Of a DNA stretch of 26,553 nucleotides, positions 8,623 to 16,999 are shown in pieces. Source of the DNA: Nitrospirota bacterium (lineage in GTDB: Bacteria; JACPQY01); contig JACPQY010000003.1 in NCBI GenBank assembly GCA_016190245.1, positions 1 through 26,553 of the forward strand, in the 5' to 3' direction. Every line of letters begins with the position of its first letter. The first letter of the stretch is position 1. The position numbers and the translations under genes are program-made. The notes below the pieces were generated by a model that was not told the DNA's origin, did no database searches, and saw only the letters and a program-made list of their open reading frames with translations.

Positions 8623-9462
8623 TTGCCGCGCGCTCGTCCCCAACCGCCTTTGAAGAGAGGACGAGTCGCACCGATAGCGGAAATACGGCTGTGGCGGGGC
8701 GAACTCTGGTTTTCAGCGCGCCGCGTGGGAGGGGCCTACGAGCTCTCGTGGACGCGTGCCGCGACGGCCGCCATCTCCCTCGATGGGCGGCGCGTTCGAT
8801 TCCGGTCGGTGCAGGGGGCAGCCCCCGTCAGCCTTGCTCTTGTCCGCCGGATGGTTCGAGCCTATGCCTTCAGCCTGCGAGGTGTCGAGAGCCTCCACGC
8901 CACCACCATCGCCAAGGGCACCGCGGCCGTCGCTCTGCTCGGCCCCTCCGGCGCGGGCAAGTCCACGCTGGCGGCGTACCTTGTCCGCCGGGGATGGCAC
9001 CCCCTCTCGGATGATGTCCTCTGGCTGAAGTTGCGCCGGGATGGGGTGTGGCCGACGCGCACCCTGCCGTGGCTCAAACGAGTGCCGGCGAAAGGGGGCA
9101 TCTCCCGAGGCGTCGTATTCGATCCGAACCTCGGGAAAGAGATCCTCATTCCCGGACGCACGGCCGGGCCTCGCCGCGTGCGCGCCTTCGTCCGGCTCGA
9201 TCGTCGCCCGCGGGGGAGGGTGCAGGTGGAGCGCTTGCGTGGGGCGCGGGCGGCGGCCGTGCTTGCCGTGAACGTGTACAACGAGCTGCTCCGCCCGCCT
9301 CGGGTGAGGGTGGCGCAGCTCCAGTGGGCCTGCCGTCTTGCCGAGCGCGTGCCCGTCTGGAGGCTGAGATTTCCGTCGGGGATGGTGCACCTGCCACGGG
9401 TCGCCGGCACGATCCAGAATATCCTTGCCGGCGGTCCCCTCCGGCCCGGCATTTCCCCGTGA
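8623..9462 (+). CDS. HprK-like P-loop kinase of RiPP/lasso-type clusters
   Basis: 279 aa if started at TTG 8623; another TTG at 8650 is possible and the start is uncertain. The core LHATTIAKGTAAVALLG leads into the Walker A GPSGAGKST (107-115) and then LSDDVLWL (128-135). This is the signature of HPr kinase/phosphorylase-related proteins found beside PqqD-like and asparagine-synthetase-like genes. The N-terminal DRTGG-type half of true HprK is absent. In characterised lasso clusters such kinases phosphorylate the precursor's C-terminal serine, so the substrate here may be a peptide rather than HPr. The stop overlaps the next start as GTGA, implying tight coupling to the cyclase-like gene. HprK-related kinase A systems of other loci are an alternative home. 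Confidence 0.8.
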   Translation: MPRARPQPPLKRGRVAPIAEIRLWRGELWFSARRVGGAYELSWTRAATAAISLDGRRVRFRSVQGAAPVSLALVRRMVRAYAFSLRGVESLHATTIAKGTAAVALLGPSGAGKSTLAAYLVRRGWHPLSDDVLWLKLRRDGVWPTRTLPWLKRVPAKGGISRGVVFDPNLGKEILIPGRTAGPRRVRAFVRLDRRPRGRVQVERLRGARAAAVLAVNVYNELLRPPRVRVAQLQWACRLAERVPVWRLRFPSGMVHLPRVAGTIQNILAGGPLRPGISP

Positions 9463-11099
9463 GCGGGCTCTGCGGTCTCGTCGCCTTCGACCGCGAGCCG
9501 CGGGGACCGGACCTTCACGCGATGCTCTTCATGCTGAGCCATCGTGGAGTTGGCGATCCGGGCTTGTGGACGGGGAGGCGCGCCGCCCTGGGCTGGTGGG
9601 AGCGTTCCACATCGGAACCCGAGCGCCGGACCGTTCAACCCCTGCGGGCCAGCTCGACGGGTCATGTCCTGGTTTTCGATGGCCGCCTCGACAACCGAGA
9701 CGAACTCGTGGAAAGCCCGGCGCTTGCCCGTGCCGGCGATGCCGAGATCGTGCTGGATCTCTATGCGCGGCGCGGGCCCGAGGCGTTCGATGCACTGCTC
9801 GGAGACTTCGCCCTCGCCCTGTGGAACGGCGAGAAGGAAACGCTTCATCTGGCGCGGTCTCCGCTGGGCGTACGCCCCCTCTTCTGGTGCATCACGCGAG
9901 ACCAGTTCCTGTTTGCGTCCGAGGCGAAGGCCATCCTTCCGGTTCACGGCGTTCCGCGCGAGTTGGACGCGCCCTCGCTTCGCAGAAAAGCGCACGTGCG
10001 TTCTCGCGACTGCGGTGAAACCTTCTTCAAAGCTATCCGCCGCGTGGTCCCCGGCACACGCATCGAGCTGCGTGCGGGCTCCGTCTCGGTTTTCCCCATC
10101 TGGCGACCCGACGTGTCACGACGGATCGCCAAGCCCGATTCGCGGGCCTATCAGGAAGCTTTCGTGCGGATCCTCCGAGAGGCTGTCCGGTGCAGGCTCC
10201 CCGCGCGTGGCCATGCGGCTGTCTTGCTCTCAGGCGGGGTTGATTCTGCGGCCGTCTCGCTCATGGCAGGAGAGGCCGCGCGTGCCGCGTCGTGGGCGAA
10301 CCGCGCAGAGGCCTATACGTGGGTATCGGATGATCTGCCGGAAGAGCAGTCGGCTGCTCGGGAGGCCGCAGCGCGTGCCGGCGCGACTCACGTCGAGGTG
10401 CGGATAGACCGCCTGGATCCGCGCGCGGAACTCGACCAGAGAGTCTTCGAGTTGGAATCCCCATTCGTGGATGCGGAGTGCAATTGGTTTCGGGCCCTGA
10501 TGAGGGAGGCTTCGCAGCGCGGGGCCACGGTTCTCCTGAGCGGGCTGTGGGGGGACGAGACGATGCGGTGTCATGCTCGCCCCGCGGACCTCCTCTCAAC
10601 CGGCCGTTGGTCGGCAGCCTGGGGGGAGCTGAGAGGGATGGTGCCGGGTGACTTCCCCAACCTCTGGTTCGGTTTGGAATACTCGCTGAGGGCGCTGCTC
10701 CGCCCCGACAGGCCGGCTCTGCGGTTCCGGACGCGGGCGCAAAGGGAACTGCATGAACGCGCGTGCGGTCCACACAGTGTTCGTCGGCTCGAGGAGTGGG
10801 AGCGTGCCGCGGCGTGGGCGGGGCTGGAACTGCGCGTGCCTTTTCTCGACCGCCGACTGCTGGACCACCTGCTGGCCATCCCCGCCGAGGAACGCGGCGG
10901 GAAGCGTCTGCTACGAGAGGGGTTGGCCGGTCATCTGGGGGAAAGATGGGCGAGTCCCAAGGTGGCCTCCGAAGCACGCACGGATTTTCTGATGGGGCCT
11001 TTCCGCCAAACCGAAGGGAGAAGTCGCGACACGGGCCGTGCCTTTCATCACTGGGACGAGCACACGCTCCAACTGTTCCGGCAGGCCTTCGGTTCCTGA
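9459..11099 (+). CDS. Asparagine-synthetase-like (lasso cyclase-type) protein 1
   Basis: 546 aa from the GTG in a GTGA overlap with the kinase gene. It has an N-terminal class-II amidotransferase-like fold (MSGLCGLVAF, GHVLVFDGRLDNRDEL, LGDFALALW, LGVRPLFW) and a C-terminal ATP-pyrophosphatase domain with SGGVDS (258-263) and LRVPFLDRRLLDHLL. In AsnB the nucleophile is Cys2 (MCGIAG). Here residue 2 is Ser and a Cys occurs at position 5, so glutamine hydrolysis is probably lost. That is typical of lasso isopeptide cyclases, which adenylate an Asp/Glu side chain of the peptide. Another amide-forming role cannot be excluded. It is paralogous to the minus-strand gene 11264-12940. Confidence 0.85.
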   Translation: MSGLCGLVAFDREPRGPDLHAMLFMLSHRGVGDPGLWTGRRAALGWWERSTSEPERRTVQPLRASSTGHVLVFDGRLDNRDELVESPALARAGDAEIVLDLYARRGPEAFDALLGDFALALWNGEKETLHLARSPLGVRPLFWCITRDQFLFASEAKAILPVHGVPRELDAPSLRRKAHVRSRDCGETFFKAIRRVVPGTRIELRAGSVSVFPIWRPDVSRRIAKPDSRAYQEAFVRILREAVRCRLPARGHAAVLLSGGVDSAAVSLMAGEAARAASWANRAEAYTWVSDDLPEEQSAAREAAARAGATHVEVRIDRLDPRAELDQRVFELESPFVDAECNWFRALMREASQRGATVLLSGLWGDETMRCHARPADLLSTGRWSAAWGELRGMVPGDFPNLWFGLEYSLRALLRPDRPALRFRTRAQRELHERACGPHSVRRLEEWERAAAWAGLELRVPFLDRRLLDHLLAIPAEERGGKRLLREGLAGHLGERWASPKVASEARTDFLMGPFRQTEGRSRDTGRAFHHWDEHTLQLFRQAFGS

Positions 11100-11129: not shown

Positions 11130-11348
11130 CTACGAGCTCCCCGGTGGAGTCTTGCTCTTCCCCAACTCAGTACGGTTCCCCCCCTTGGTCGCAGCAACTT
11201 CGTGCAGTTGGCCCATGTCAATCAGGCGGGGAGGGGAGTAGGGGCGACGGTGTCGGCGGTGCCCTACCTCGGGTGTTGCTCCGCGTGCTTTTCTCCCGTC
11301 AGTCCGAACCAGTTCGCCTCCCACTCGGCCCGTGTGTGGCGCCGCCAT
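11130..11348 (-). CDS. Candidate lasso-type RiPP precursor peptide
   Basis: A frame open on the minus strand, ending at TAG 11130, encodes YSPPRL (11223-11240) followed by IDMG and HEVAATK. This matches the lasso leader signature YxxPxL-xxx-G-...-T recognised by PqqD-like RREs. The C-terminus GGNRTELGKSKTPPGSS is a plausible core or tail after the Thr at position -2, but the first Glu is at core position 6, short of the usual 7-9, so the cleavage site is uncertain. It lies immediately downstream of the second cyclase on the same strand. The start is unresolved: ATG 11346-11348 (72 aa, used here) or GTG 11322-11324, both inside the cyclase 3' end. A GAGG-TAGGG stretch at the cyclase stop precedes no canonical start. 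Confidence 0.5.
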   Translation of the reverse strand: MAAPHTGRVGGELVRTDGRKARGATPEVGHRRHRRPYSPPRLIDMGQLHEVAATKGGNRTELGKSKTPPGSS

Positions 11349-12940
11349 TGCTCCGTTCGCTCCGAGAATGTCCGACCTGTGAATCCAGCTTCTTCGAGTT
11401 TTTCGCTCCAAAAGCTCGTATAGTCGCATTTCCCCACGCGCTGCGCAACCCTTTCAGGTAGGACGCCCTTCAAGGCATCTCGAAGCAGCGGCTTGTCCAT
11501 TCCCTGATGGATTCGGACGCTGGCGGGTAGGGAAAAGAGGAGGTCGATGAGGCGTTGGTCCCTGAAAGGCAGTCGGATCTCGACCCCTTGCGCCGCCGCG
11601 TTCATGTCCCACGACTCCAGCGTCATCACTTGGTAGAGGTTGAAAAGCGCTACGTGCATCTCCATTTGGTTGCAGGTGTGATAGCGTGCGGAGGGCTCTC
11701 CCGGCAGCAGGCGATTGGGAAGGAGAAGAAACCGCGCGACGCGCCGGATGAGATCCTCAAGCGGCGGGCCTCCACCGCGGCGGAATGCCCTCGTCTCTCT
11801 CCAGAACCGGATCCACCGGCCCTCTCTGAGAAGATCCGCCAGATAGGCCCATCCGGTCATGGCCTCATCTCCAGCGTAGCCCATCAGGAGGACGCGCGAG
11901 CCGAGGGCGTGAACGGTTCCAAAAAGCCTCTCACCAAACGCTTCGTCTTCTTTCTCCACAAAGGGTGATTCCAGCCGCCGGACCATGTCCCCCAGGCGGT
12001 GGCCCACGCGGAGCGGGCCGAAGTCAACCACCGTGTTGGGGAGGTCCCATCGCTCGCAGACCTCGCGGACGTACTCCATCTCGTTCGCATAGGGTCCCGG
12101 CAGCACCGACAAGGCGTGGAGGGACGCGCCGGACGCCCCCTGCCGCACGAGGTGGGCGGCGCCACACGCGATCGAAGAGGAGTCGAGGCCGCCGGAAAGC
12201 GCGATCACCGCCGGGCCGGAGGAGGGGAGGCGAACACGAACGGCCTCCAGGAGGCGGTCCCGGAACTCACTCAGGTGCGCCTCACGGGGGTGGCGGGTCG
12301 GCGTGCCGGACCACGGACCCCAGAAACGCCGCCGGTGGAGGCTTCCCCCCTCGTGCCAGAGGATCTCTCCCGGCACGACGCGCCGGACGCCCTCGAAGAA
12401 GGTCTCCTCCAAGCCGCGGAACCTGAAACGCGTGTACTCGGCGAGGCGCTTCCGGCAGGGCCGACGCGGCGCATCGGGGAGGGCGAGGATGGCCTTGCAT
12501 TCCGAAGCGAAGGCGAGGCAGCGCGAGCCGATCCAATAGAAAAGGGGCTTCATCCCCATCGCGTCTCTTGCGAGGATCAAGCGGCCCGCCGCGCGGTCCC
12601 AGAGGGCGATCGCGAAATCTCCACGGAGTTGCTCGGGGAAGTCCAGCCCGCACCGGCGGTACTCGCTGATCACCCGTTCCACCGGGGACTCCGTGACCGC
12701 CTCAGGCCCGATCACGCCGTCGAAGCGCCCATCCGCGACGAGGTGGAGGCCGCCCCCTGCGAAGGGCATGGGGGAGCGTTCGTCCACACGCATCAGGCGA
12801 TGGCCCATGGCCATGGCTCCGTCGGTGAGAACCGCGCTGCCGTCCGCTCCTCGGTGGGCGATCGTCGCCAGCATCTCCCGAACCGCGCCGGCATCCGCCC
12901 GACCGCCATCGAGCCGGAGGATGCCGGCAACGCCGCTCAC
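11264..12940 (-). CDS. Asparagine-synthetase-like (lasso cyclase-type) protein 2
   Basis: 558 aa starting at the GTG of a GTGA overlap with the PqqD-like gene; the frame is open further upstream, but that part is the PqqD gene in another frame. The N-terminus MSGVAGILRLDGG has Ser in place of the catalytic Cys2 of glutamine-dependent AsnB, exactly as in lasso cyclases. Other conserved parts are IAHRGADGS, LRGDFAIALWDR, MGMKPLFYW, the PPi-binding SGGLDS (249-254), LMGYAGDEAMTG and EIRLPFRDQRLIDLL. It probably activates a carboxylate by adenylation to form an amide or isopeptide on a RiPP substrate. The order PqqD-like, cyclase, precursor candidate is that expected of a lasso operon. Confidence 0.87.
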   Translation of the reverse strand: MSGVAGILRLDGGRADAGAVREMLATIAHRGADGSAVLTDGAMAMGHRLMRVDERSPMPFAGGGLHLVADGRFDGVIGPEAVTESPVERVISEYRRCGLDFPEQLRGDFAIALWDRAAGRLILARDAMGMKPLFYWIGSRCLAFASECKAILALPDAPRRPCRKRLAEYTRFRFRGLEETFFEGVRRVVPGEILWHEGGSLHRRRFWGPWSGTPTRHPREAHLSEFRDRLLEAVRVRLPSSGPAVIALSGGLDSSSIACGAAHLVRQGASGASLHALSVLPGPYANEMEYVREVCERWDLPNTVVDFGPLRVGHRLGDMVRRLESPFVEKEDEAFGERLFGTVHALGSRVLLMGYAGDEAMTGWAYLADLLREGRWIRFWRETRAFRRGGGPPLEDLIRRVARFLLLPNRLLPGEPSARYHTCNQMEMHVALFNLYQVMTLESWDMNAAAQGVEIRLPFRDQRLIDLLFSLPASVRIHQGMDKPLLRDALKGVLPERVAQRVGKCDYTSFWSEKLEEAGFTGRTFSERTEQWRRHTRAEWEANWFGLTGEKHAEQHPR

Positions 12941-13224
12941 GCGCGCCTCAGCAATCCGTGTCTCACAAGCAGCCGGGCGAAGGCCAGCAGATCCCGCGTG
13001 AGCCGGCGCGATCCTACGCGATGACGTGCGAGCAGCCGAGCGCGAGCCAACCCCAGCCGCCGGCCCCGGAGGATCTCCTCCCAGAAATCCCTCCCGACGG
13101 GATCCAGGCCGAAGTAACGCCCTTTCCGGGTCTCGACGATCAAGCACTCGCCGCCCGCCTTCCCGTAGGCCACCGCCGCCGGCAGCGTGAATCTCGACGC
13201 CAGAGAGACCCTTGTCCTTGCCAC
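12937..13224 (-). CDS. PqqD-like RiPP recognition protein (lasso B1-type)
   Basis: 95 aa from GTG 13224. The stretch GECLIVETRKGRYFGLDPVGRDFW, followed by a helical segment and LLAFARLLVRHGLL, is the winged-helix PqqD/RRE fold: two or three beta strands with 'lDpvg...W', then helices. Stand-alone RREs bind the leader peptide (YxxPxL in lasso systems) and deliver it to the modifying enzymes. Translationally coupled to the cyclase gene by a GTGA overlap. The Arg-rich middle (LRGRRLGLARARLLARHRVGSRR) is unusual. Confidence in the fold is good; the lasso role rests on context. Confidence 0.82.
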   Translation of the reverse strand: MARTRVSLASRFTLPAAVAYGKAGGECLIVETRKGRYFGLDPVGRDFWEEILRGRRLGLARARLLARHRVGSRRLTRDLLAFARLLVRHGLLRRA

Positions 13225-13232
13225 TCGTTTCC

Positions 13233-13261
13233 AGAATAGCAGGCCAGAGACCCCTGGTCAC
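13233..13261 (-). promoter_or_regulatory. Promoter of the PqqD-like/cyclase 2 operon
   Basis: On the minus strand GTGACC (13256-13261), 17-bp spacer, TATTCT (13233-13238). The GTG start begins 9 nt after the -10, another almost leaderless arrangement. Confidence 0.5.
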
Positions 13262-13487
13262 TCGGCAGGGCGGGACTACTCCCGATGGGTGATGGCGTGA
13301 GCCCATCGAAGTTCCAAGGTGTGTGGAGGCCGGTAGCGATAGTTGGCAGTGGAGCCGCGTCCAAGCTCTGCATCTCCCCGGGATAGCCTGAGAAACGTGA
13401 TGAAGCTCACTTCAAGCCCGGGATGACGTTGACCGAAGATGCTTAGAAAGCATTGGCGGTGGCAACGGTTAGGGCAGGATCAATAAC

Positions 13488-13691
13488 GTGACAGGAATCA
13501 CATTCGCGCAGGATATGTGCCACTGTGTAAGCAAATTAGACACAGATGTAGAAGTTTCCATGTTTGAGCCCATTTCCGCGATTGCAACCGCGACTTGTAT
13601 TGAAATGCTATCTGATGTAGATATGTTGTGTGATAGATGTGTTTTCGCCTGTGGCATCGTTATTGCTGGTCAAGGGAGAAACTGGGCGTGA
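13488..13691 (+). CDS. Small Cys-rich ORF in the low-GC interval
   Basis: 67 aa from GTG, preceded by AGGGCAGGA at a reasonable distance, and running into the start of the HD gene (overlap by a few nt). It contains six cysteines (MCHCVSK, TCIE, LCDRCVFACG). Codon use is AT-richer than in neighbouring genes. No family is recognised. It could be a real small protein, part of a recently acquired segment, or a chance ORF; the antiparallel 62-aa ORF (13469-13657) covers the same bases, and at most one is likely to be real. Confidence 0.2.
   Translation: MTGITFAQDMCHCVSKLDTDVEVSMFEPISAIATATCIEMLSDVDMLCDRCVFACGIVIAGQGRNWA
13595..13623 (+). promoter_or_regulatory. Possible promoter of the HD/BY-kinase operon
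   Basis: TTGTAT (13595-13600), 17-bp spacer, TAGATA (13618-13623), about 65 nt before the HD-gene GTG. It lies in AT-rich sequence, where chance matches are more likely. Confidence 0.3.
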
Positions 13692-14719
13692 CTGACATGC
13701 GCGAAAAGCTTTCACCGGTGGACCCGACGATCGGGACACCGCCGGAAGTGCTGGCAGAGCGGCGTGATCGGACGTCGGGCCTGTTTGCCGAGTCCGAGAG
13801 GAGGCTTGCGGAATATCTTCGAGCACTCCATGGGGGAAGCGCGGTCAGTCCATCGCCCCTGTCCGGCTTGGTGGCCGTTGTGACCGAGGAGTTGTTCGGC
13901 GGCCGCGACCAAGCGTTGGAGAAAGTCTTCTACTTTTCCGAGCGTGCCGCGGATCCCTCTCTTCGGACGGCCCGCCACTCGCTGAACGTGGCGGTGCTCT
14001 CCTGCGCACTCGGCGCAGAACTCGAGTTCCGCCCCGAGAGGCTCCGCATAGCGGTGGGCTGCGCGCTCGTGCACGACGTGGGTGTCCTCTCGCTGCCTCC
14101 GGATCTCGTGGAGCGCCCTCGACCGCTTTCGGCCGAGGAGTTCGGGAAGCTCCGCGAACATTGCGGCATCACCCGAGACCTGCTGGCTCGCCGCGGTGGG
14201 GATGAAGCGGCATTGGCCCAGCTCGTCTATCAAGCCCAGGAGAGGTACGACGGCAGCGGCTACCCGCTCCACTTGGCGGGCGAGGACCTGGATGATGTCG
14301 CGCTGGTGCTGGGTTTTTGCGACACGATCGAGGGGCTCACGCACGACCGCCCGCAGAGGACCGCCCGGACCTTCATGCAGGCTGTGGAACTTCTGCTGAG
14401 CGAGGCGCGGGACCGGTTCCCGGAGTACATGTGGATCGCCGCCTTGGGCGCGTTCACTCTCTACCCGCCCGGCAGCATCGTGACCCTCTCCTCGGGAAGA
14501 GTGGCTCGCGTCCTGCGAACGCACAGTGAGGCGCCCATGAGGCCGGTGGTCGAAATCCTGGGGGATCGTACGAGCCGGCAGCCCCAACTGGCGGACCTGA
14601 GGCATCTGCCGTTCGTCCATATCACCGGCCAGGTCTCAGCGCCGCCTCGAGGCGTGCTTCCCCCAAGGCCCGAAGACGCGCCCTCGGCAACCGCATCCTC
14701 CATCGGTTCGGCGGGTTAG
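13688..14719 (+). CDS. Degenerate HD-GYP domain protein
   Basis: 343 aa from GTG 13688, chosen because AGGGAG lies 9 nt upstream; ATG 13697 is an alternative. The HD-GYP core spans about residues 80-230. H97 (TARHSLNVA), H129-D130 (LVHDVG), H158 (LREHCG), GYP (191-193, RYDGSGYP) and D212 (FCDTIEGLTHDRP) are kept. The HH pair that normally precedes E-R-W-D-G-S-G-Y-P reads A183-Q184, so two metal ligands are missing. The family hydrolyses cyclic di-GMP; this member may have altered or lost activity and act as a binding protein. It lies 9 bp before the BY-kinase gene, which suggests a role in controlling polysaccharide export. Confidence 0.8.
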   Translation: MTDMREKLSPVDPTIGTPPEVLAERRDRTSGLFAESERRLAEYLRALHGGSAVSPSPLSGLVAVVTEELFGGRDQALEKVFYFSERAADPSLRTARHSLNVAVLSCALGAELEFRPERLRIAVGCALVHDVGVLSLPPDLVERPRPLSAEEFGKLREHCGITRDLLARRGGDEAALAQLVYQAQERYDGSGYPLHLAGEDLDDVALVLGFCDTIEGLTHDRPQRTARTFMQAVELLLSEARDRFPEYMWIAALGAFTLYPPGSIVTLSSGRVARVLRTHSEAPMRPVVEILGDRTSRQPQLADLRHLPFVHITGQVSAPPRGVLPPRPEDAPSATASSIGSAG

Positions 14720-14728
14720 TCGAGACCT

Positions 14729-16999
14729 ATGAACAACCGCGGGGCGGCGCCGGAAGGCAATCTCTTCCTCGATCTCGTCCGCGTCGCCCGCAAGCGGAGG
14801 TGGATCATCGTGGTGACGGCCCTCGCAGCGCTTGCCGTGGGATGGAGCTACGCAAAGGGCCGCAAACCCGCCTACCAGGCGCGCGCCACCATCGAATTCG
14901 AGAAGCCGCCGGCCACCGCCCTGGGCCAGTACGGCTGGTCCGATGACGCGCTCGACCTCCAAACGGAGCTCGAAGTCATCACGAGCCTTCCCGTTCTCCT
15001 CGAAGTGGCTAAGCGCTTGGGCGAGGTCCCCGTCGAGCTGTCGGTCGCGGATATCATGCACGATGAACCGACGGTCCGCAGGCTCAAGGCCCATGAAAGT
15101 CAGCTCAGGGTCCGGTCCCGGGGGGGCACGCGCCTTGTCGATATCATCGCCACCTCCAGCGAACCCCAACAGGCGCGCGACCTTGCCAACGCCGTGGCGG
15201 ACACGTTCAAGGGATATCGTCTCGAGCAGGCGTTTCGAAAGAGCGCGGACACCAAGGACATCAGCCGCCGCTATCAGGAACGTCTCGATGGGCTCCTGGC
15301 GGAGGCGGAGGAGAAGGTGCGCCGGCATCGCGAGGAGCACGGGCTGGTCGGCGTGGATGCCGCTGTCAGCGTCAACCTTGGCCGGCTGGCGGCTCTCGAG
15401 GAGGAGGAGGCACGTCTCGCACGGCAGGTACAGCAGGCCGAACGGCTCATTCAGGTTCTTTCCGAGGGGGCGTTCCTCGATGGCGACACGCTGCCCTCCC
15501 TGGAGTGGCGCGATGCCCCGCCCGAGTACCAATCGCTGAGATCGCAACTGCTGGAGAGCGTGTTCCAGTACCGGGACCGGGCTCACGGCTGGACCGCCGA
15601 GCACCCCGAGGTGCAGGAGGCCAGGTCGCGCGCGGAACGCCAGATCGAACAGCTGTCCGTTCTCCTCGCCCGCCAAATCGAGGATCTGCATGAGCAGCAA
15701 CGGCAACTGGGGGAAAGTCGGGACAGGCTCCAGGAGCGCAATGGCGCCGTCATCCGTGAGGACATCGAGTTGGCCCGGCTCCAAAGACAGGTCGATCGCT
15801 ACCGGACGATGATCGATTCGGTGGATGCCGCCACGCAGCAGGCGCAGCTCAGTGGAGCCATCCAGAGCAGCAACGTGCGCCTGGTCGAATATGCGCTCCT
15901 CCCCTCGCGCCCCATCGAGAGGCTCAGTATGTTGCCTGCCGCGTCCTTCGCGGTCGTCGGGATCATCCTCGGCATCGCGCTGGCCTTCCTCAGGGAGTCC
16001 CTCGATTTCTCCCTCGACACCGTGGCCGATGTCGAGCGCTTCCTGGGCATCCCGGTGCTCGGGATCATTCCCCATTTTGAGCTGCGCCAGACCATCGAAC
16101 AAGAGAAGAAGCTGCGCCGGAAAATCCCCCGCCTCACCAATCTCGATCATGCCGTGAACATGGTTGTTCACTTCTGGCCCAAGTCCCCTGTGAGCGAGTC
16201 GTTCCAGAGCCTGCGGATGCTTCTGCGGCGGCGGGAGAACATGAGAGTGATCCTCGTGACCAGCGCCACCCCGCAGGAGGGCAAGTCCTTTGTGGCGGTG
16301 AACCTGGCCCTCTCCTTCGCGCAGGGGCAGATGCGGACCGTGCTGGTGGAGGCCAACACCCGGCGCCCGACCCTCCACAAACGGTTTCCCGTGAGCCGAG
16401 GCCCGGGCCTTACGAACATCGCCTCCGAGGGTATGAGCTGGAAAGACGTGGCGAAGGGCATCAAGCATTTCATATACGGGGGAATTGATCTCACCTCGCT
16501 CGAAGCTTCTCCGGGCCTGGACAACCTCCACGTGATCAATGCGGGACCCACCCCCGTGCATCCGCCCACGACGCTCGATCTCCTGACTCAGCGCGGACTT
16601 CTCAATGAGCTGCGCGAGGCCTTCGATGTCATCGTGGTGGATTCCCCGCCCACGCTGCCGGTGGCGGACGCCTCCGTCCTGGCTCCGTACGTGGACGGCA
16701 TCGTGCTCGTCTACCACCTGGGCAAGACGGCCCGCGACGTCACCCTGCGGACGCTCGACCACCTGCGCGGCGCCCAGGGCAAGATTGTCGGCATCGTGCT
16801 CAACGACGTGGACTACCACGGCCCCTACTTCTACTCGCGCTACGCGTACCGCTACCCCTACCTGCGCTACACCCCAGATGAGGACTACCGCCGCAGAAAC
16901 GCGTTCGAGAAGCTTCGTGACTTTGTAACGACCCGCGCGCGGCGCCGCGGCGGCCGCCTGCGGCGGCAGCCGATGTCACCCGACACCTGGGTGCACTGA
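14729..16999 (+). CDS. Wzc-like polysaccharide co-polymerase / BY-kinase
   Basis: 756 aa. N-terminal Wzz domain with TM1 (about 25-42); long periplasmic coiled coil (about 170-365, rich in Glu/Gln/Arg); TM2 (about 402-421) preceded by PSRPIERLSMLP; cytoplasmic P-loop kinase domain from about 485. Walker A is SATPQEGKSF (512-521) and Walker B VIVVDSPP (634-641). The C-terminal tyrosine cluster has nine Tyr between 696 and 720 (YHGPYFYSRYAYRYPYLRY), the autophosphorylation tail of BY-kinases. Walker A' reads VEANTRRP (540-547) where the family has an Asp-x-Asp before RRP, so catalysis may be impaired. It regulates chain length and export of exo- or capsular polysaccharide at the inner membrane. 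No glycosyltransferase genes are nearby. Confidence 0.92.
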   Translation: MNNRGAAPEGNLFLDLVRVARKRRWIIVVTALAALAVGWSYAKGRKPAYQARATIEFEKPPATALGQYGWSDDALDLQTELEVITSLPVLLEVAKRLGEVPVELSVADIMHDEPTVRRLKAHESQLRVRSRGGTRLVDIIATSSEPQQARDLANAVADTFKGYRLEQAFRKSADTKDISRRYQERLDGLLAEAEEKVRRHREEHGLVGVDAAVSVNLGRLAALEEEEARLARQVQQAERLIQVLSEGAFLDGDTLPSLEWRDAPPEYQSLRSQLLESVFQYRDRAHGWTAEHPEVQEARSRAERQIEQLSVLLARQIEDLHEQQRQLGESRDRLQERNGAVIREDIELARLQRQVDRYRTMIDSVDAATQQAQLSGAIQSSNVRLVEYALLPSRPIERLSMLPAASFAVVGIILGIALAFLRESLDFSLDTVADVERFLGIPVLGIIPHFELRQTIEQEKKLRRKIPRLTNLDHAVNMVVHFWPKSPVSESFQSLRMLLRRRENMRVILVTSATPQEGKSFVAVNLALSFAQGQMRTVLVEANTRRPTLHKRFPVSRGPGLTNIASEGMSWKDVAKGIKHFIYGGIDLTSLEASPGLDNLHVINAGPTPVHPPTTLDLLTQRGLLNELREAFDVIVVDSPPTLPVADASVLAPYVDGIVLVYHLGKTARDVTLRTLDHLRGAQGKIVGIVLNDVDYHGPYFYSRYAYRYPYLRYTPDEDYRRRNAFEKLRDFVTTRARRRGGRLRRQPMSPDTWVH

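Follow-up and report, generated by a model that had tools for sequence, protein, structure and literature searches.

A short frame on the minus strand (positions 11130 to 11312) very probably encodes a lasso peptide precursor, judging from its sequence and from comparison with relatives. The window analysed here is an entire contig of 26.5 kb, belonging to a genome that is 85% complete. Descent of the frame from lasso precursors is nearly certain; that it still serves to make a lasso peptide is only slightly favoured. The precursor is a further example of an already known type of lasso peptide, in a little-known bacterial phylum. The features of the locus are collected in Table 1.

Table 1. 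Features of the predicted lasso peptide locus in the 26.5 kb window.
Feature	Position	Strand	Description	Basis
HprK-like kinase	8623..9462	plus	Likely tailoring kinase	NCBIfam HprK_rel_A, E 6.8e-10, below cut-off
Cyc1	9459..11099	plus	Asparagine-synthetase-like cyclase	PF00733; NF033535, 244 bits, under cut-off
Probable lasso precursor gene	11130..11312	minus	60 aa, LVRTDGRKARGATPEVGHRRHRRPYSPPRLIDMGQLHEVAATKGGNRTELGKSKTPPGSS	Profile of relatives and start homology
Predicted leader peptide	11190..11312	minus	Y-17xxP-14xL-12...G-8, Ala at -2 (11195-11193)	
Predicted core	11133..11189	minus	TKGGNRTELGKSKTPPGSS	Register by alignment with the cores of relatives
Predicted ring acceptor Glu8	11168-11166	minus	Would form a macrolactam with the Thr1 amine	
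Cyc2	11264..12940	minus	Asparagine-synthetase-like lasso cyclase	PF00733, GATase_7; NF033535, 281 bits, under cut-off
PqqD-like RiPP recognition element (B1)	12937..13224	minus		PF05402, E 2.4e-8, over cut-off

The precursor frame is placed after Cyc2, between the convergent kinase–Cyc1 and PqqD–Cyc2 units. Both cyclase genes start with GTG and overlap the preceding gene by 4 nt, Cyc1 the stop of the kinase gene and Cyc2 that of the PqqD-like gene. Among the components of a lasso cluster, the AsnB-like cyclase (C) is present in two copies, for both of which the lasso cyclase model NF033535 was the best in NCBIfam, with scores below its cut-off, and the PqqD-like recognition element (RRE, B1) is present as well. 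Neither the cyclases nor the kinase is truncated, and their SGGxDS and P-loop motifs are intact, LSGGLDS being kept in Cyc2. The kinase assignment is weak by profile; its position is conserved in both cassettes of the related genome G001, with 43% and 39% identity. An RRE in the same transcription unit as Cyc2 had been proposed, and the overlap between the two genes, together with the best PDB match of the PqqD-like protein, TbiB1 (5v1u, E 2.5e-5), bears this out. TbiB1 (5v1u, 5v1v) is a lasso leader-binding protein and, like the window protein, a PqqD-like RRE; its sequence is distant. By analogy, the window protein would bind the leader.

Downstream of Cyc2 on the minus strand, the frame reads ...PYSPPRLIDMGQLHEVAATKGGNRTELGKSKTPPGSS* and closes with a TAG stop at 11130. 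All elements listed in the original prediction were found there, namely YSPPRL (Tyr codon at 11240-11238), IDMG, HEVAATK and GGNRTELGKSKTPPGSS. A scan of all six frames for Y..P.[LIVMF] with Gly at +9 matched nothing else in the window. The precursor has 44 codons outside Cyc2 at a GC content of about 65%, and at such a length and base composition an open frame by itself is no evidence; therefore, the judgement was based on comparison with relatives.

A profile, A4, was built from 12 precursors, all from other genomes, with the window sequence left out. Searched against the 3.3 Mb genome to which the window belongs, it gave a single good match, positions 11136 to 11264 of the window on the minus strand (E 8.1e-6; next 0.845), which establishes homology to peptides encoded beside lasso cyclases. 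Against the 546 stop-to-stop frames of the window, the precursor obtained an E-value of 8e-8, and the next best frame 0.55. The claim that the full pattern would hardly arise by chance is upheld by the genome-wide match at the expected place and by the same position being repeated twice in G001. When the 36-residue window peptide was shuffled, its alignment score with 9 of 10 relatives was never reached, while the similarity of the core alone to the relatives' cores was not significant; most of the homology signal thus comes from the leader. No Pfam or NCBIfam model matched the 99-aa frame, and none of the six frames upstream of the PqqD-like gene (13225-13637) contained an alternative precursor. 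Lasso precursors in poorly sampled phyla can escape notice, being short, overlapping a cyclase gene and perhaps having no ATG, and a profile of relatives recovers them.

G001, the only other genome of the phylum that was compared, represents the same family as the window genome. It carries the convergent kinase–Cyc1 and Cyc2 set twice on one contig, with a lasso-type peptide encoded directly 3' of each Cyc2 copy: MVQKRRRS...RYAAPRLIEYGDLTALT-R-GGGGSIEKDPTNKTAFSNHN in one case and MVRNKRKRRRTYKAPRLIAYGDLRTLT-K-AKGTVKSETNKTRATGSD in the other. Genes for B2, an ABC exporter and PqqD form one run with the lasso set. As the original prediction implied, the frame and its motif are conserved in relatives, twice in G001 after Cyc2 and also in lasso loci of other phyla. 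Wzz and HD genes adjoin the cluster in both the window and G001, an indication that the locus was inherited and not acquired recently. The HD-domain and Wzz-type flanks of the window (13637-16999) and of locus L016 (833-4254) have opposite orientations relative to the lasso cluster.

Scanning contigs with Cyc2 alone gave no matches. With an alignment of three Cyc2 copies as the query, 80 loci were obtained, about 20 of which encode lasso-type precursors; further precursors came from 95 genomes of the phylum of locus L022 (Rokubacteria). Genomes G007 and G045 matched PqqD but contained no comparable precursor, and were set aside.

The gene had originally been placed at 11130-11348. A frame from the upstream ATG does exist, but the start homologous to that of the relatives lies at 11312. 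The ATG of both G001 copies corresponds to CTG 11312-11310 in the window (LVR versus MVR/MVQ); this CTG is followed by GTTCGG, and the G001 ATGs sit inside the last Cyc2 codons (Trp-Glu-x-x-Trp-Phe). No ATG, GTG or TTG is found at the homologous start position of the window precursor. Canonical in-frame alternatives upstream of the CTG are GTG 11324 and ATG 11348, either of which is possible as the actual start. The conserved GGGAGG ahead of the start was discarded as evidence, since Cyc2 needs these bases to encode Trp-Glu.

In the leader, Y-x2-P-x-L is followed by Gly four residues past Leu, and the pattern Y..PRLI..G.L is common to the window peptide and both G001 peptides. The YxxPxL motif is numbered -17 to -12 in lasso leaders (PMC10368454); in agreement with this, Thr-2 of the relatives lies 15 residues past Tyr and their core begins 17 residues past it. 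The lasso leader signature YxxPxL...G...T was recovered in part: the spacing of Tyr, Pro, Leu and Gly is kept, but Thr-2 is replaced by Ala. Position -2 is normally Thr, rarely Ile or Val, and among 25 aligned relatives it was Thr in 24 and Val in one. This residue serves recognition and does not define the class; losing it matters for processing.

The register was anchored on the relatives' cores AKGTVKSE.., AKGGTKGD.. and GNMKTRTE.., and therefore the predicted window core has Glu at position 8, within the range of 7 to 9 looked for in an Asp or Glu acceptor. The first acidic residue of the core occurs at positions 7 to 10 in the 25 aligned relatives; 17 share position 8 with the window, and seven have Thr1. 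These relatives were mostly chosen by the YxxPxL...G motif, and so only the features of the core are unaffected by this selection. In a working pathway, a leader peptidase would cut after Ala-1, and a cyclase would activate Glu8 as the acyl-AMP and link it to the Thr1 amine, so that a ring of eight residues encloses the tail; the HprK-like kinase may add a phosphate to a Ser or Thr of the core.

The component missing from this scheme is the B2 transglutaminase-like leader peptidase, which searches with PF13471, NF033537, the B2 of G001 and an alignment of nine members failed to find in the window or elsewhere in the 85% complete genome. It is present in G001 and was located nearby in 15 of the 19 other precursor loci, one of the remaining four being a short contig. 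A transglutaminase-like match on contig C9 was not accepted as B2, since it forms the C-terminal portion of a 498-aa protein encoded next to a different kind of ABC transporter. Since neither the locus nor the assembled genome encodes the peptidase, it would have to be supplied from unassembled DNA or replaced by another protease, or else the pathway has stopped. The absence of B2 and Ala-2 are two departures from the relatives that fit together; neither these nor the CTG start figured in the original prediction. In combination they mean that decay or an unusual peptidase must be taken seriously, with incompleteness of the assembly as a third possibility.

The strongest of these alternatives, to which we assign a considerable though minor share of the probability, is a decaying cassette: the frame would be a true precursor by descent, with B2 and the exporter lost, Thr-2 and the ATG no longer kept, and no product formed. 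Besides the missing B2, this explanation accounts for Ala-2 and the CTG start; in the Bsf system, the leader was no longer removed at all once residue -2 was Ala (PMC10368454), and the window contains no counterpart of the G001 ABC exporter. However, Cyc1, Cyc2, the PqqD-like gene and the kinase gene are all open with their catalytic motifs present, the peptide retains Tyr, Pro, Leu, Gly and Glu8, and B2 may sit in the missing part of the genome.

The same intact parts would be expected of a working pathway without a B2 of its own, in which the leader is cut by a peptidase from another family, or by one whose gene lies elsewhere, that is less selective at -2. Ala-2 coincides with the missing B2 here, and loci L021, L044 and L093 are also without B2 nearby, but no candidate peptidase was identified and an assembly gap would explain the missing B2 equally well; we regard this explanation as rather unlikely. 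A pathway free of B2 altogether, with paired cyclases, RRE and kinase acting on an Ala-2 precursor whose leader is cut by an unrelated protease or retained, appears more doubtful still. The locus offers a natural case for asking whether a leader cleavage site drifts after loss of the peptidase.

Cleavage one residue earlier, which would put Val at -2 and make Ala residue 1 of an Ala1-Glu9 ring, is improbable to a similar degree: a kinase is present and Ile or Val at -2 has been reported for phosphorylated lasso systems (PMC10368454), but Tyr would move from -17 to -16, and the alignment with the AKGG cores, which have Glu or Asp at 8, would be broken. Finally, the frame is short and overlapping, has no ATG at the homologous start and has a core without significant similarity, all of which would fit a chance non-coding frame, but the profile match falls exactly at the expected place and the position is conserved twice in G001, which leaves this explanation hardly any weight.

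Returning to the reading of the frame as a lasso precursor, its locus has paired cyclases. A maximum-likelihood tree joins the Cyc1 group and the Cyc2 group formed by the window and G001 as sisters (six rows, 100/100), and the cyclase pairs of Rokubacteria, an Opitutia bacterium and genome G092 each cluster within their own lineage. Two cyclases beside one precursor therefore arose several times, and one ancient pair shared across phyla is rejected by the tree. The position of the glutaminase nucleophile is occupied by Cys in Cyc1 proteins and by Ala in Cyc2 proteins. A literature search for two-cyclase lasso clusters returned nothing relevant, which does not prove their absence; the present locus points to repeated independent doubling of the cyclase beside one lasso precursor. 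Two cyclases with a single precursor were seen in the window (9459-11099/11264-12940), L022 (6118-9659), L026 (6277-9731), L045 (8001-11785) and L117 (90-3121).

The bsf system of Bradymonas sediminis, with split B1/B2 and a kinase (PMC10368454), shares with the window the YxxPxL leader at -17 to -12, the acidic residue at core position 8, a PqqD-like B1, an HprK-like kinase and an AsnB-like cyclase. It differs in having B2 and Ile at -2, whereas the window has two cyclases and a precursor gene that follows the cyclase gene and overlaps with its 3' end. The Rokubacteria loci L022 and L026 resemble the window in their two cyclases, the precursor after the second and the HprK-like kinase (PqqD was found in L022), as well as in their cores, where basic residues precede Glu8 and the tails are rich in Lys and Thr. 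In contrast to the window, their cyclases are tandem rather than convergent, B2 is present, and the precursors have Thr-2 and an ATG start; according to the tree, their cyclase duplication is independent of that in the window.

Several further peptide genes were noticed in the compared loci. Two or more different lasso-like precursors are encoded in tandem at L041 (12471-13135, minus) and L031 (1765-2358), and L125 has two short frames in tandem, each with a YERPELKRLGTLRD leader (1581 and 1758, minus); a cyclase was not detected in the surrounding 1.5 kb or so. In G001, a Cys-containing peptide, MMKNQDRKSPIGRKPYKKPELVYSKMVEALAIVCDSSRSPGFTCRTVGNASCVKTRD, is encoded at L006 10926-12267 (minus), between the lasso cassettes; its neighbours are genes for a radical SAM-SPASM protein and an ABC exporter, and it looks like part of another RiPP cassette. 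In addition to the two kinases preceding Cyc1, G001 encodes an extra P-loop protein resembling HprK-type kinases (L006 12535-13263, minus).
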